A DNA stretch of 64,000 bases, taken from Aliarcobacter trophiarum LMG 25534. Lineage in GTDB: Bacteria > Campylobacterota > Campylobacteria > Campylobacterales > Arcobacteraceae. Made by a program: the position numbers and the translations under genes. Shown piece after piece: positions 42,767 through 48,518 of this stretch; within the stretch, counting starts at the first letter, position 1; every line of letters begins with the position of its first letter. A model generated the notes under the pieces. That model saw only the letters and a program-made list of their open reading frames with translations, searched no databases and was not told where the DNA came from. Where the stretch lies: contig NZ_CP031367.1 in the NCBI RefSeq assembly GCF_003355515.1, forward strand, positions 310,001 to 374,000, in the 5' to 3' direction.

Positions 42767-42802
42767 AAAAGCCAAAGCAAACTAGCTTTGGCTTTTTTTT
42801 AT
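42767..42802 (+). terminator. intrinsic terminator between purL and purH
   Basis: Arms gccaaagc (42771-42778) and gctttggc (42785-42792), extended by A/T pairs, with a six-base loop and eight T residues. The purH start is only about 28 bases beyond it. Confidence 0.92.
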
Positions 42803-42829: not shown

Positions 42830-44368
42830 ATGAAAAAAAGAGCATTGATTAGTGTTAGTGATAAAAGTGGAGTTGTAAATTTTGCAAAGGAACTTGTAAA
42901 TTTAGGATATGAGATTATTTCAACTGGTGGAACATATAAGATTTTAAAAGATGAAAAAATTGCAGTAATTGAAGCAAATGAGATTACAAAGTTTCCAGAG
43001 TGCTTTGAAGGAAGAGTAAAAACTTTAAATCCATATATTCATGGTGGAATATTACATAGAAGAGATAAACAATCACATTTAGATGAAGCAAAAAATTTAG
43101 GAGTAGAATCTATTGATTTGGTTTGTGTAAATTTATATCCATTTAAAGCAACAATTCTTAAAACTGATAATTTTGAAGAGATTATAGAAAATATTGATAT
43201 TGGTGGACCAGCAATGGTTAGAAGTGCTGCAAAAAACTTTGATAGTGTAATTATTATAACAGATGTAGCTGATTATGATTTAGTTTTACAAAATCTTAAA
43301 AATGGTACAAATACAGTTGAATTTAGAAGAGATTTAATGATTAAAGCTTATGAGCATACAGCCTCTTATGATTCAATGATTGCAAACTATATGAACAAAA
43401 GATTTAATAATGGTTTTGGTGAAAAACAGTTTATAGTTGGTTCAAAAGTATTTGATACAAGATATGGAGAAAATCCACACCAAAAAGGTGCTTTATATGA
43501 GTTTGAAAATCAATTTTCAAATAAATTTAAAGTAATTAAAGGTGAACCTAGCTTCAACAATATGGGGGATATAAGTGGAGCAGCAAAAATAGCTGCTAGT
43601 TTTGGAAAAGATAAAGCTATTTGTATAGTAAAACATGGAAATCCATGTGGATTTGCTATTAAAGATACTCTTTTAGAGTCATATATTGAAGCTTTAAAGT
43701 GTGACCCTGTAAGTGCCTTTGGTGGAGTTGTAGCAGTTAATGGAATAGTTGATAAAGAGCTAGCAGAAAAAATGAATGAAATTTTCCTTGAAGTTGTTTT
43801 TGCTGCTGATTTTACATCTGAAGCTGTTGAAGTTTTTGAGAATAAAAAGAGAATTAAACTATTTTCGCAAGGGAGTGATTATTTAGAACTAGCAAATGAT
43901 AATTTTGATTTTAAAAGAGTTGATGGTGGATTTGTATATCAAGAAGCTGATAAAGTTGCAGATGATGAAGTTATAAATTCTAAGCTTATGTCACAAAGAG
44001 CTGCTACTAAAGAAGAAGTAAAAGATATGGAAATTGCTTATAAAATTGCATCTTTAACAAAATCAAATTGTGTAATTTATGTTAAAAACTCTGCAATGGT
44101 AGCTGTTGGAATGGGAATGACAAGTAGAGTAGATGCAAGTAAAGCAGCACTTAGAAAAGCTAGTGATATGGGTATTGATGTAACTGGAGCTGTATTAGCA
44201 TCTGAAGCATTCTTTCCATTTAGAGATAGTATAGATGAAGCACAAAAAGCTGGTGTAAAATGTGTAATTGAACCAGGTGGAAGTATAAGAGATGATGAGA
44301 TTATTGAAGCTGCAAATGAATATGGGATGGCTCTATATTTCTCTGGAATTAGACATTTCTTGCACTAA
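42830..44368 (+). CDS. purH: bifunctional AICAR formyltransferase/IMP cyclohydrolase
   Basis: Catalyses the last two steps of IMP synthesis. The 512-residue protein has an N-terminal MGS-like cyclohydrolase domain ([13 protein letters not shown] at the start, [10 protein letters not shown] near 33-42) and the formyltransferase domain with [10 protein letters not shown] near 266-275 and SDAFFPF-like SEAFFPFRD near 460. Length is normal. It begins after a terminator and has AAGGAAAAAG before the ATG. It probably depends on read-through from purL, since no promoter fits in the gap. Confidence 0.97.
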
Positions 44369-44385
44369 TATTTATATTAAATAAC

Positions 44386-44416
44386 TAATCTATACCAAAG
44401 TTTTTGGTATAGATTA
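44386..44416 (+). promoter_or_regulatory. 14-bp perfect inverted repeat before the sensor kinase
   Basis: taatctataccaaa (44386-44399) and tttggtatagatta (44403-44416) with a three-base loop. It is followed by AAAAAGGA, the ribosome site of the kinase, not by T residues. It may be a terminator-like hairpin for purH, a leader structure or an operator. Confidence 0.6.
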
Positions 44417-44428
44417 AAAAGGAAAAAA

Positions 44429-46369
44429 TTGCGACTTTTTTTTAATCTTAAACCTATTATTTTATTAATCTTTTTAAGTATAAACCTATTTTCAAAAGAT
44501 TTAACAAAAGTTACAATTCAACTATCTTGGTTTGATCAGTTCCAATTTGCTGGATATTATATGGCAAAAGAGCAAGGATTTTATGAAGAAGAAGGCTTAG
44601 ATGTTGAGATTTTGCCATTTAGTTTTGGATTAAATGTACCAAAAATGGTAAATGATTCTTTAGTAGATTTTGCAATAGGTAGAGAAAACCTAATCTTAGA
44701 GAAAGTAAAATATCCCAAAATTATAGCTCTAGCAGCAATTTTTCAAGCAACACCACTTGTATTAATAACTACAAAAGAGCAAGGAATAGATAGCTTTAAA
44801 AAATTTGAAAATAGAAGACTTATGAGAACAAAAGATGATGGTGCTGAAGTCTCTATAAGAGCTATGTTGGCTGCTAGTAAGATAGATTTAAATAAAATAA
44901 TTAATATAGAACATTCACATAATATCTATGATTTGATAGATAAAAAAGTTGATATTATCTCTGCATATACTTCAAAAGCTCCATATACTCTACAAAAAGA
45001 GGGGATAGAATATAATCTTTTTTATCCAAAAGATTATGGTTTTGATATGTATAGTGATTTTTTAATTACAAATATTGATAAATACAATAACAACTACAAT
45101 ATGGTTGAGAAGTTTAAAAAAGCATCTTTGAGAGGTTGGGAGTATGCTTACAATAATATAGAAAAAAGTGTTGATACTATTTTTGAAAAACATAATACTC
45201 AAAATCTTACAAAAGATGAGCTCATTTTTGAAGCAAAAGAGCTTAAAAAACTATCATATTTAAATGGAAACAAATTAGGAGAGATGAGACAAGATAAGGT
45301 TCAAAGAATTTATGATTTATACAATATTATGGGATATATTAATAGTGAGTTTAAAATTGATGATTTTCTAGGAATTGATAAAAAAAGTGACTTAGAAAAA
45401 TGGTTTCGCTTAAAGTTTGAAGAGTATTTTGATTTATCACTTTTATGGAAATTCTTTTTGATTATTATTGTTATTACAGCTATTTTTATATATAGACAAT
45501 ATTTTATAACAAAACTAAATAAAAGATTAAAAAATCTTGTAAAAATAAAAACAAATAGATTAAAAGTAATGAACAAAAAGCTCTCAACAAGAATTAAAAA
45601 AGAGTTAGAGAAACATCAAGAAAAAGATAGGATTCTAGCTCAACAACAAAAACTTGTGGCAATGGGGCAAATGATAGAAAACATAGCTCATCAGTGGAGA
45701 CAACCACTTTCAGTTATTAGTACAAGTGCTAGTGGATTGAAGCTAAAAAGAGAATTAAATATTTTAAGTAACGAAGATTTTATAAAAAATATAGAACAAA
45801 TAGTTGATACTGCAAAATATCTATCAGATACCATAGATGATTTTAGACATTTTTTCAAACCACAAAAAGATAAAACAAAGTTTAGCTTAGTAAAAAATAT
45901 TGAAAAAAGTCTATCCTTTGTAGAAACTGCACTTAAAGAGAATAATATAGAAATAGAGTTTGAGTATGAAGATGTTGATATTATTGCTTATGAGACGGAG
46001 CTTATGCAAGTTTTTATAAATATTATTAATAACTCAAAAGATGCCTTTATAGAAAATAAGATTAAAGATAGAGTTATCTTTATATCAATAAAAAATTTTT
46101 CAAATAGAGTTTTAATTGAGATAAAAGATAGTGCAGGTGGAGTAAAAGATGATATTTTAGACAAAGTATTTGAACCATATTTTACTACAAAACATCAATA
46201 TAGTGGCACTGGAATAGGGCTTTATATGTCAAATCAAATTATTAAAACACATTTAAATGGAGATATTTTTATGAAAAATTGTAGCTTTAAATATAAAAAT
46301 GTTGAGCAAAGAGGAGCTATTACAACAATAGTTCTAGGTAAAAATCCTTTGGAAGAGATAAAACATTGA
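44429..46369 (+). CDS. hybrid THI5/NMT1-like periplasmic sensor histidine kinase
   Basis: A 646-residue membrane kinase. It starts with TTG (44429-44431) after AAAAGGA. Residues 1-22 are a signal peptide or first membrane helix. About 25-315 resemble ABC substrate-binding proteins of the NMT1/THI5 (thiamine-pyrimidine precursor) family, with QLSWFDQFQFAGYYMAKEQG at 31-50. A membrane helix (338-356) and coiled coil (358-410) follow. The kinase core has phospho-acceptor H421 (NIAHQWRQPLS), N box 531-540 and G box GTGIGLY 593-599. No response regulator is adjacent. The final bases overlap bioA. Confidence 0.9.
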   Translation: MRLFFNLKPIILLIFLSINLFSKDLTKVTIQLSWFDQFQFAGYYMAKEQGFYEEEGLDVEILPFSFGLNVPKMVNDSLVDFAIGRENLILEKVKYPKIIALAAIFQATPLVLITTKEQGIDSFKKFENRRLMRTKDDGAEVSIRAMLAASKIDLNKIINIEHSHNIYDLIDKKVDIISAYTSKAPYTLQKEGIEYNLFYPKDYGFDMYSDFLITNIDKYNNNYNMVEKFKKASLRGWEYAYNNIEKSVDTIFEKHNTQNLTKDELIFEAKELKKLSYLNGNKLGEMRQDKVQRIYDLYNIMGYINSEFKIDDFLGIDKKSDLEKWFRLKFEEYFDLSLLWKFFLIIIVITAIFIYRQYFITKLNKRLKNLVKIKTNRLKVMNKKLSTRIKKELEKHQEKDRILAQQQKLVAMGQMIENIAHQWRQPLSVISTSASGLKLKRELNILSNEDFIKNIEQIVDTAKYLSDTIDDFRHFFKPQKDKTKFSLVKNIEKSLSFVETALKENNIEIEFEYEDVDIIAYETELMQVFINIINNSKDAFIENKIKDRVIFISIKNFSNRVLIEIKDSAGGVKDDILDKVFEPYFTTKHQYSGTGIGLYMSNQIIKTHLNGDIFMKNCSFKYKNVEQRGAITTIVLGKNPLEEIKH

Positions 46370-47652
46370 ACTATTTAGAAATAGATAAAAATCATCTTTG
46401 GCATCCATATAACTCTTTGCCATCAAAAACTCCTATTTGGAGCGTAAAAAAAACAAAAAATTGTAAGATTTTTTTAGAAGATGGAAGAGTTTTAGTCGAT
46501 GGTATGAGTTCATGGTGGAGTGCAATACTAGGTTACAATAATAAAAGAATCTATAAATCTTTAAAAAAACAGGCAAAAAATATGCCACATATTATGTTTG
46601 GTGGATTAACTCACAAACCAGCTTGTAAACTAGCTAATAATTTAGTAAAACTTACAGGTTTTAATTCAGTATTTCTTTGCGATAGCGGTTCAGTTTCAGT
46701 TGAAGTTGCTTTAAAAACAGCAATTTTATATCATAAAGCAAAGGGTGAGAATAGATATACTTTTTTAGCTTTAAAAAATGCTTATCATGGTGATACTTTA
46801 GGAGCTATGAGTGTTTGTGATCCAGAAAATTCGATGCACAGTTTATATGGAGACTATTTAAGTAAAAATATCTTTGTAAAAACTCCAAATATGGGTTTTG
46901 ATGCAGATTTTTGTGAAGCTTTAGAAGATTTAGAAGAGAAGCTTAAAGAAAATCATAAAGATATTGCTGCTTTTATTGTTGAACCAGTTGTTCAAGGAGC
47001 TGGTGGGATGAGAATATATAATCCACAATATCTACAAGAGGCAAAAAAAATTTGTACAAAATATGATATTTTACTAATCTTTGATGAGATAGCAACTGGT
47101 TTTGGGCATACAGGAGAGATGTTTGCATATATGCACACAAATATAAAACCAGATATTATAACTATTGGAAAAGGTATTACAAGTGGTACTATCTCACTAG
47201 GAGCTATGCTTACAACGAAAGAGATAAGTGATGTAATTTCAAATAGCTCTATTGAAGTTTTAATGCATGGACCAACTTTTATGGCAAATCCATTGGCATG
47301 TAGTATTGCAAATACTTCTATAAAAGAGCTTTTGAGTTTTGATTGGAAAACAAAAGTTTTAGAAATAGAAAAAACTTTTAGAAAGGAGTTAGAAGTTTTA
47401 AGAGAAAAAAAAGTCGTAAAAGATGTAAGAGCCATTGGAAGTATTGGGATAATTGAGTTAAATAGTGATGTTTTTGCTCAAGATTTACAAAATTTTTGTG
47501 TACAAAATGGTGTTTGGCTTAGACCTTTTGGAAAACTATTTTACTCAATAGTATCATATACAATTAGTAAAAAAGAGCTAGAAAAAGTTATAAAAACTAT
47601 GGTAAAAGCAGTTAATGAGATAGATAAAAAATATGAAAAGTGCTTGAAGTAA
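46366..47652 (+). CDS. bioA: adenosylmethionine-8-amino-7-oxononanoate aminotransferase
   Basis: PLP enzyme that makes 7,8-diaminopelargonic acid in biotin synthesis. The 428-residue protein has HLWHPY at 10-15, GMSSWWSAILGYN at 46-58, D240 (LLIFDE) contacting PLP, and the Schiff-base lysine K269 in TIGKGI. It starts with TTG (46366-46368), overlapping the kinase stop by four bases, so translation is probably coupled to the kinase. Other bio genes are not adjacent; birA is at 62245. Length is normal. Confidence 0.96.
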   Translation: MNYLEIDKNHLWHPYNSLPSKTPIWSVKKTKNCKIFLEDGRVLVDGMSSWWSAILGYNNKRIYKSLKKQAKNMPHIMFGGLTHKPACKLANNLVKLTGFNSVFLCDSGSVSVEVALKTAILYHKAKGENRYTFLALKNAYHGDTLGAMSVCDPENSMHSLYGDYLSKNIFVKTPNMGFDADFCEALEDLEEKLKENHKDIAAFIVEPVVQGAGGMRIYNPQYLQEAKKICTKYDILLIFDEIATGFGHTGEMFAYMHTNIKPDIITIGKGITSGTISLGAMLTTKEISDVISNSSIEVLMHGPTFMANPLACSIANTSIKELLSFDWKTKVLEIEKTFRKELEVLREKKVVKDVRAIGSIGIIELNSDVFAQDLQNFCVQNGVWLRPFGKLFYSIVSYTISKKELEKVIKTMVKAVNEIDKKYEKCLK

Positions 47653-47667
47653 TATAAAGGAGTTTAT

Positions 47668-48027
47668 ATGAAACTTAATAAACTATCAAAAGAGGAAGAG
47701 TATATTATAGAACATAAGGGAACAGAGAGACCTTTTAGTGGATTGTATAATGATTTTTATGAAGTTGGAACTTATTTATGTAAAAAGTGTAATGCAAAAT
47801 TATATAAAAGTGAAGATAAGTTTAAATCAAATTGTGGATGGCCAAGTTTTGATGATGAGATAAAAGGTGCTATAAGGAAACTTCCTGATATAGATGGAAG
47901 AAGAGTAGAGATAGTTTGTGCTTCTTGTGGTGGGCATTTGGGACATATTTTTGAAGATGAGGGATTTACTTCTAAAAATATAAGACATTGTGTAAACTCT
48001 TTATCTTTACATTTTGAAAAGGAGTAA
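47668..48027 (+). CDS. msrB: methionine-R-sulfoxide reductase
   Basis: Reduces the R epimer of methionine sulfoxide in proteins. In the 119-residue protein the zinc ligands are C38, C41, C84 and C87, and the catalytic cysteine is C108 ([10 protein letters not shown]). GWPSF (57-61) and GHLGHIF (89-95) are family marks. AAGGAG precedes its ATG, 15 bases after bioA. msrA starts two bases after its stop, so the two repair enzymes are separate but coupled. Confidence 0.97.
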
Positions 48028-48029
48028 AA

Positions 48030-48518
48030 GTGTCAAATTCAAAAGCATATTTCGCAGCTGGGTGTTTTTGGGGAGTTGAATACTATTTCCAAAAAGAAAA
48101 TGGAGTAAAAAGTGTAATTAGTGGATATATGGGTGGGCATATCTCAAATCCTAGCTATGAGATTGTTTGTAGTGGAAATAGTGGGCATTTAGAAGTTGTT
48201 GAAGTTATTTTTGATGAAAATATAATATCTTATGAAAAATTGGCAAAACTATTTTTTGAAATCCATGATTTTACTCAAATAAATGGTCAAGGTCCAGATA
48301 TAGGAACTCAATACTTAAGTGCAATTTTTTATACAGATGAAAATCAAAAAAACATATCTCAAAATCTAATAGTAGAATTAGAAAAAATGGGATATAAAGT
48401 TGCTACAACTCTATATCCAGAAGTAACTTTTTATAAAGCTGAAGATTACCATCAAAACTACTACAATAGGCATAATAAAATGCCATATTGTCATAGATAT
48501 AAAAAGATTTTTAATTAG
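48030..48518 (+). CDS. msrA: methionine-S-sulfoxide reductase
   Basis: Reduces the S epimer of methionine sulfoxide. The 162-residue protein starts with GTG (48030-48032), preceded by GGAG (48021-48024) that overlaps the end of msrB. The catalytic cysteine is C12 in AAGCFWGVE; GYMGG and YHQNYY are also present. It overlaps the end of the convergent hypothetical gene by eight bases. Length is typical. Confidence 0.97.
   Translation: MSNSKAYFAAGCFWGVEYYFQKENGVKSVISGYMGGHISNPSYEIVCSGNSGHLEVVEVIFDENIISYEKLAKLFFEIHDFTQINGQGPDIGTQYLSAIFYTDENQKNISQNLIVELEKMGYKVATTLYPEVTFYKAEDYHQNYYNRHNKMPYCHRYKKIFN

Follow-up and report, generated by a model that had tools for sequence, protein, structure and literature searches.

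What does it mean that the gene for a sensor kinase overlaps the biotin gene bioA? The question is raised by a locus of Aliarcobacter trophiarum LMG 25534 (contig NZ_CP031367.1, positions 310,001 to 374,000; this whole stretch of 64,000 nucleotides is referred to as the window) in which a sensor histidine kinase with NMT1, HisKA and HATPase_c domains, here called K, is encoded on the plus strand at window positions 44429-46369 and ends within the start of bioA. An earlier note on this DNA had taken the coupling as a sign that the ligand of K relates to cofactor supply. The analysis favours a different answer, with a probability of roughly 0.55, namely that K is a membrane-bound orphan kinase with a probably heterocyclic ligand whose link with bioA is mainly inherited gene order, condensed in a reduced genome, and not a biotin-sensing circuit. 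K itself is genuine and intact, belongs to a receptor type already known and lies among neighbours that are conserved without being obligatory; its pairing with bioA is likewise genuine and of old date. The locus illustrates how overlapping genes in a genome that has shrunk can give a false impression of functional coupling. The literature searched contained no paper on an NMT1 kinase in Arcobacter or on one with a known ligand; NMT1 with histidine kinase and Arcobacter, or the phrase NMT1 THI5 with histidine kinase, gave no match, and papers combining NMT1, histidine kinase and THI5 were by their titles not about such a kinase. In the available parts of two further papers, one does not mention the bioA gene, its sole match being an instrument name (PMC5495459), and the other is without NMT1 (PMC6219798).

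Conservation of the K-bioA pair

K was sought in 104 genomes of the family (E 1e-90 or better) and was matched in 71. Judged by coordinates, bioA lies within 6 kb of K in 48 of the 71, comprising all 30 genomes of the window's genus that carry K, 3/3 in genus g2, 1/1 in g4, 1/1 in g16, 9/9 in g19 and 4/12 in g9, with none of the 15 genomes in g8, g12, g14, g15, g17 and g18. The gap between the two genes is at most 80 nt throughout the 30 genus genomes, in keeping with the conservation of the pair that the earlier note had expected there; the 31st genus genome (G020, 76% complete) yielded neither K nor bioA at the thresholds used. In four g9 genomes bioA lies upstream of K, not downstream (gene order read in two).

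Gene order was read in 15 of the 23 genomes in which the two genes are not adjacent (G051, G054, G055, G057, G059, G064, G074, G076, G078, G080, G084, G086, G087, G088 and G089). Six of these (G055, G057, G059, G064, G086 and G087) have K, without bioA, directly before the NUDIX gene that otherwise follows bioA, and K can therefore hold its place without bioA; purH is the next gene upstream of K in G064 and G086, as it is upstream of K in many relatives. In G074, G088 and G089, which belong to the remaining nine, the match may represent a paralogue or a fragment at the end of a contig. Conversely, in G001 (L235:3589-7681) K is broken by an open reading frame (ORF) with DDE transposase domains and bioA is intact, and in the window's genome bioB lies elsewhere, at 1.80 Mb. 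Neither purH nor the NUDIX gene was found among the matches listed at loci of Sulfurimonas and other bacteria outside the Arcobacteraceae. Two candidates were discarded, L172 as a bioA outside the family (24% identity, too weak) and the NUDIX gene as a response regulator, a guess from its size that was ruled out by Pfam. A functional inference from the bioA overlap is thus not supported beyond synteny.

Sensor domain and ligand

The sensor part of K carries the signature W-x2-QFQFAGYY (residues 34-44) and scores 148 bits against NMT1 (PF09084; gathering cut-off 20.5), a family assignment matched by a solute-binding protein (SBP) fold. An AlphaFold2 model of residues 22-335, built on an alignment of 66 sequences, has a mean predicted local distance difference test (pLDDT) score of 92.8. 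When it was compared with solved structures (50 best rows), the best match among those listed was ThiY (3ix1; Z 32.5, 292 residues aligned, root-mean-square deviation 3.1), followed by the thiamin-bound protein 4nmy (Z 30.6, 290 aligned, 3.0), Thi5 (4esx, 4h67; Z 26.7), SsuA (2x26; 23.6), PqqT (22.4) and TauA (6ssy; 20.2); Foldseek likewise ranked 4nmy, 3ix1 and Thi5 first. No biotin-binding protein was present in the 50 best rows, which excludes nothing. The description of the sensor as thiamine-precursor-type is therefore right for the fold of the modelled domain, and the comparison with THI5 and SsuA that had been proposed gives a shared fold in the order ThiY, Thi5, SsuA; the fold does not fix the ligand.

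A lead to the ligand comes from the neighbours of stand-alone relatives. Relatives of the NMT1 domain of K are widespread, with at least 551 encoding places confirmed in one scan (receptors and transporters together), and transporter neighbours were sought in all 80 loci that were named among those at least 551. In 11 of the 80 a stand-alone NMT1 relative lies beside an ATP-binding cassette (ABC) ATPase and permease. Eight of the 11, all from Paenibacillus and by similarity one lineage, also encode a hydrolase of isochorismatase type together with a PucR regulator and a ring-opening amidohydrolase of the AtzD/TrzD kind (Pfam names verified for L209); with the hydantoinase of the L190 locus (Chloroflexales), nine of 11 have an amidohydrolase or hydantoinase. 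These neighbours hint at a heterocyclic nitrogen compound as the ligand of K, which is no more than a lead given that the stand-alone relatives are about 30% identical to its domain, and they offer a concrete list of ligands for testing.

The closest fold could point to a different ligand. On this account K would sense thiamin or a thiamin pyrimidine (hydroxymethylpyrimidine, HMP, or formylaminopyrimidine), with bioA co-expressed in a vitamin-supply response, in keeping with the fact that by sequence of the sensor part as well as by fold the top solved matches are a thiamin-bound SBP and ThiY. We consider it unlikely. The first-loop signature reads WFDQFQFAGYY in K as against WYPNAVHTFLY in ThiY in the alignment, and 30 of the 31 genus genomes have a match to thiC (a fragment in G019). 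The window's own genome carries thiC at a distance of about 215 kb from K, such that import of the thiamin pyrimidine is not needed. No Rfam family reached its gathering score in the window, the thiamin pyrophosphate riboswitch included. In addition, NMT1/THI5-like genes under a xanthine riboswitch are described in the available text of one study as distinct from thiamin genes and as serving purine oxidation (PMC7373994).

The hairpin between purH and K

A 14-bp perfect hairpin before K had been noticed earlier and is indeed present at 44386-44416, ending 12 nt before the TTG start. The folding energy of the stretch is -16.2 kcal/mol, the shuffle mean being -6.0 (standard deviation 2.19), and none of 200 shuffles is as good. 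In 17 of 19 loci purH is followed within 15 nt by a perfect stem of at least 11 bp; the perfect stems of G086 and G001 are only short, but the folding there is about as good. The stem sequence is common to the window and its near relatives, with CTATACC/GGTATAG shared by the window, G007, G008, G009, G016, G030 and G014; elsewhere, for example in G027 and G015, the stems are unrelated in sequence. In nine compact loci (seven short forms of K, described below, together with G030 and G014) the end of the stem falls anywhere from 6 nt past the start of K, taken as the longest-ORF start, to 16 nt short of it, and the stem is followed by 0-5 T in 8 nt; in the other eight loci with a stem of at least 11 bp it ends 46-1282 nt from K and is followed by 3-7 T. 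The window has 0.

Position and conserved structure make the hairpin most likely the terminator of purH, worn down in the window, and because of that wear read-through from purH into K-bioA may occur. A riboswitch or operator was rejected in view of the Rfam result and of a stem that is not conserved in G027, G015 and more distant relatives, leaving room for an operator role of the shared CTATACC/GGTATAG stem in the window and its near relatives. Between purL and purH lies a strong terminator-like site (12 pairs with a T-rich tail; window 42767-42796), and purH may therefore not be read with purL.

The hairpin also bears on the proposal, about as improbable as the thiamin one, that K is part of the purine gene group, responding to a nucleobase outside the cell and sharing a transcript with purH by read-through past the hairpin. 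The position of purH upstream of K in many loci and the lack of T after the window stem suit it, as does the placing of NMT1/THI5-like genes under xanthine/urate riboswitches in the excerpt of the study cited above (PMC7373994). However, the distance from stem to K is at least 46 nt in the eight non-compact loci examined that have a stem of at least 11 bp, TATACT-type boxes are visible in several of them, the two g15 genomes whose gene order was read have K away from purH, and the site between purL and purH is the more strongly terminator-like.

The K-bioA junction and the short form of K

At 34 K-bioA junctions (30 genus genomes with G083, G092, G031 and G035) the gap is at least 36 nt in 20 and at most 19 nt in 14, the window included. 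An exact TATAAT is found in 18 of the 20 wider gaps, where mononucleotide shuffles would give 5.15, and its surroundings often resemble AATAATCTTTAGATATAAT. The two gaps without it are those of G029, which has TACAAT in these surroundings, and of G092; none of the 14 narrow gaps has such a box. In the relatives bioA thus probably had a promoter of its own, judging from these boxes, which would have been lost when the gap narrowed in the wider group around the window. The 4-nt overlap occurs in all eight short-form genus genomes and, among the junctions examined, only in the short-form group; with BioA trimmed to the window's start it is 1 nt for G015, G016 and G027.

The short form is a one-piece match with an open frame of 649-665 aa, found in the genus members G000, G007, G008, G009, G015, G016, G018 and G027 and in the distant G051. 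Most other matches are in two pieces with frames of about 850-900 aa (some long-form frames are cut short where a contig ends or breaks, and some are longer), the extra stretch lying between NMT1 and the kinase. The alignment has a single clean gap, and the stretch is SBP_bac_3 by Pfam in L049 and in the paralogue L059; L050 aligns there with Pfam silent. From short forms nested among long forms we infer that the short form arose by loss of SBP_bac_3. The kinase-core tree needs two changes, with one origin left open (52% of bootstrap trees), and the BioA tree needs two. Rounded genome sizes are 1.9-2.1 Mb for the seven near-complete short-form genomes and 2.2-3.2 Mb for near-complete long-form genus members, and the NUDIX gene is gone from 7/7 of the former. 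Replacement of bioA by recombination was considered and is not claimed, the BioA of the window being placed in the BioA tree apart from the relatives with which K groups, with a one-clade test (p-AU 0.068) short of rejection.

A second orphan kinase, L122 (G000:C1:201704-203398), shows a pattern like the size difference of K, with open frames of 575-588 aa in G000, G007, G008, G009, G016 and G030 vs mostly about 790-800 aa elsewhere; L122 and its G030 counterpart have one SBP_bac_3 copy and that of G012 has two. As an SBP_bac_3 kinase at 202-203 kb, L122 was considered as the split-off half of a long-form K, a fission that is ruled out by its orthologues: many genus genomes have one of them in addition to a long-form K, and in most of these the orthologue is itself longer.

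Taken together, these results did not bear out the claim that the coupling tells of a cofactor-related ligand, with K before NUDIX without bioA in 6 of 15 genomes, bioA upstream in four, a putative bioA promoter in 18 of 20 wider gaps and the overlap confined to the short-form group. They bear equally on the proposal that K is a biotin-pathway regulator which senses biotin or dethiobiotin and controls bioA by translational coupling together with another regulator. Both compounds are cyclic ureas, and a biotin sensor would suit the cyclic-amide hydrolases beside the stand-alone relatives, the closeness of the genes in 48 of 71 genomes and the overlap in every short form of the genus. It is nevertheless less likely than the thiamin and purine proposals, since K persists without bioA, bioA stays intact beside the interrupted K of G001, relatives have a putative bioA promoter and bioB lies far away.

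Partner regulator and proposed mechanism

The genome holds 23 receiver matches, 21 above the cut-off, and none within 76 kb of K in the genome scan; the nearest response-regulator match is 76.8 kb away, confirming that K has no adjacent regulator. Twenty kinase-like ORFs were compared, leaving out L123 (CheA by look) and L124 and L136 (by frame size). The nearest receiver is more than 25 kb away for K, L122, L126 and L132, and no receiver lies near K or near three further kinases that share H-(Q/H)-W-(R/K)-QPL. The phospho-acceptor regions of L122, L126 and L132 are 48-54% identical to that of K, and that of L120, with a receiver nearby, is 49% identical. When the 23 were ranked with a profile built from seven receivers that neighbour NMT1 kinases elsewhere, in genomes other than this one, L101 (117.8 bits), L093 (110.8) and L100 (108.1) came out on top, followed by 85.4; L101 and L093 have nearby kinases and L100 has none. 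L100 is a REC-GGDEF-EAL protein (G000:C1:512203-513819) with full-length orthologues in 29 of 31 genus genomes (the exceptions being G018, 54% complete, and G019), and by sequence this orphan is the best partner candidate for K, no more. In related NMT1 kinases (L059:5650-8875, L149:6001-9236 and L232:2775-6759) a response regulator lies directly downstream, OmpR-type by Pfam in L059 and similar in the others, and this type of kinase can therefore have an adjacent partner.

In the favoured reading, K is anchored in the membrane, its ThiY-like NMT1 domain facing away from the cytoplasm if the topology is the usual one. A small nitrogen compound, probably a heterocycle of nucleobase, pyrimidine or cyclic-ureide type, would bind in the NMT1 cleft and change the phosphorylation of His421. 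The phosphate would pass to a regulator encoded elsewhere, most likely L100, with cyclic-di-GMP as the output. With purH, hairpin, K and bioA packed together in the window's lineage, bioA would probably be read from the K transcript or by purH read-through and is probably translationally coupled to K.

Several points weigh against this reading. Selection might explain why the two genes stay close in 30/30 genus genomes with K and, across four further genera, in 14/14 genomes. The ligand class is deduced from what lies beside proteins with about 30% identity to the domain, eight of them from one Paenibacillus lineage; a ring hydrolase was not found in the transporter loci of L205 (Chloroflexaceae) and L215 (Histidinibacterium), and the stand-alone Pseudoalteromonas proteins L185, L187, L191, L193 and L200 have no ring-hydrolase neighbours (gene lists of three viewed). 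The 20 wider gaps come from related genomes and are not independent, their control is a mononucleotide shuffle and a TATAAT does not prove that a promoter is there. Whether the short forms are one group is answered differently by the BioA tree and the kinase tree, the terminator scan flags the hairpin on the minus strand only, and the receiver profile measures relatedness, not specificity, because its top two receivers have adjacent kinases.

A more ambitious version, as doubtful as the biotin regulator, would make K the pruned remnant of a tandem two-input Arcobacteraceae kinase (NMT1 for a nucleobase or cyclic ureide, SBP_bac_3 for a second solute), reduced to NMT1 and placed on one transcript with purine and biotin genes, such that the supply of nitrogen heterocycles sets bioA expression and, through REC-GGDEF-EAL, cyclic-di-GMP. 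That K is decaying and may be near loss in a reduced genome, as its missing SBP_bac_3 and neighbours, the loss of one of two such domains from the second kinase in the same lineage and the split K of G001 might suggest, is very improbable given a frame open in 8/8 short forms, kinase motifs intact in the window and 83-84% identity to four close relatives.

Features of the locus

The features are collected in Table 1. The intact NMT1-type kinase with a TTG start and an ATTGA overlap onto bioA that had been described from the sequence alone was confirmed by ORF, Pfam and TIGR00508, and the span given for it (44386-46376) fits hairpin and K together. The kinase motifs are HQWRQP at 421, NIINN at 531, DSAGG at 567, FEPYF at 581 and GTGIGL at 593, giving a HisKA domain with an acceptor His followed by N, G1, F and G2 boxes as in sensor histidine kinases; His421 is the likely phospho-acceptor by sequence. 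Downstream of bioA lie msrB and msrA, and no response regulator or transporter adjoins K or bioA among the neighbours identified by ORF and Pfam (purH, msrB/msrA). In the window (47668-48518) msrB and msrA are separate ORFs (stop, 2 nt, GTG); a single fused 281-aa ORF is found in G007, G008 and G009.

Table 1. Positions of features at the K-bioA locus in the window.
Feature	Position	Strand	Basis or remark
purH, upstream neighbour of K	42830..44368	+	AICARFT_IMPCHas and MGS Pfam matches
Perfect hairpin after purH, 14 bp, loop 3	44386..44416	+	Ends 12 nt before K TTG; no U-tract on + strand
K, orphan NMT1 sensor histidine kinase	44429..46369	+	TTG start, 646 aa; ORF and Pfam
NMT1/THI5-like periplasmic binding domain, residues 37-243	44537..45157	+	Pfam E 4.7e-43; model pLDDT 92.8; PDB matches
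Seam at residues 315/316 of K, where relatives hold about 220 more residues (SBP_bac_3)	45371..45376	+	Alignment
Putative second transmembrane helix, residues ~338-355	45440..45493	+	Hydrophobic stretch by eye from sequence, without predictor
HisKA dimerisation/phospho-acceptor domain, residues 412-478	45662..45862	+	Pfam, above cut-off; His421 at nt 45689
HATPase_c catalytic domain, residues 522-636	45992..46336	+	Pfam, above cut-off
Overlap of K stop with bioA TTG start, 4 nt in ATTGA	46366..46369	+	Read from sequence
bioA, adenosylmethionine-8-amino-7-oxononanoate aminotransferase	46366..47652	+	TIGR00508 502.1 bits, cut-off 405; TTG start

Comparison with known systems

K shares the fold of its whole sensor domain with ThiY, the FAMP (formylaminopyrimidine)-binding protein of Bacillus halodurans (3ix1), and with the thiamin SBP of C. 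difficile (4nmy), and sequence similarity of its sensor part to both is detectable. By their PDB names these are free-standing SBPs, whereas the domain of K is fused to a kinase and has no adjacent transporter, unlike a ThiY-type thiamin-pyrimidine importer with its stand-alone SBP and ABC permease and ATPase. The sulfonate-binding proteins SsuA and TauA share the fold class at a similarity below that of ThiY. BioY is an integral-membrane S component, and K, with a sensor modelled as a soluble SBP fold, is not a biotin transporter of that type.

The fold is also shared with the Thi5/NMT1 HMP synthase of yeasts (4h6d, 4esx). The AMIHT stretch of Thi5, taken to hold His66, is matched by no His in K in the alignment and the sole Cys of K is residue 618, ruling K out as such a synthase, which we take to carry a Cys motif. 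An active-site role of His66 in Thi5 is given in the available text of PMC10848271.

The nearest systems, found in Campylobacterota and in further bacteria, are NMT1 receptors, among them sensor kinases that often also carry SBP_bac_3; SBP-type sensor domains in kinases are a described kind in the accessible part of PMC9602780. As in K, their N-terminal domain carries a QFQFAGYY-type signature, and in many of them the kinase core is similar to that of K. What sets the K of the window apart from these receptors is that it is without SBP_bac_3 and is packed against bioA.

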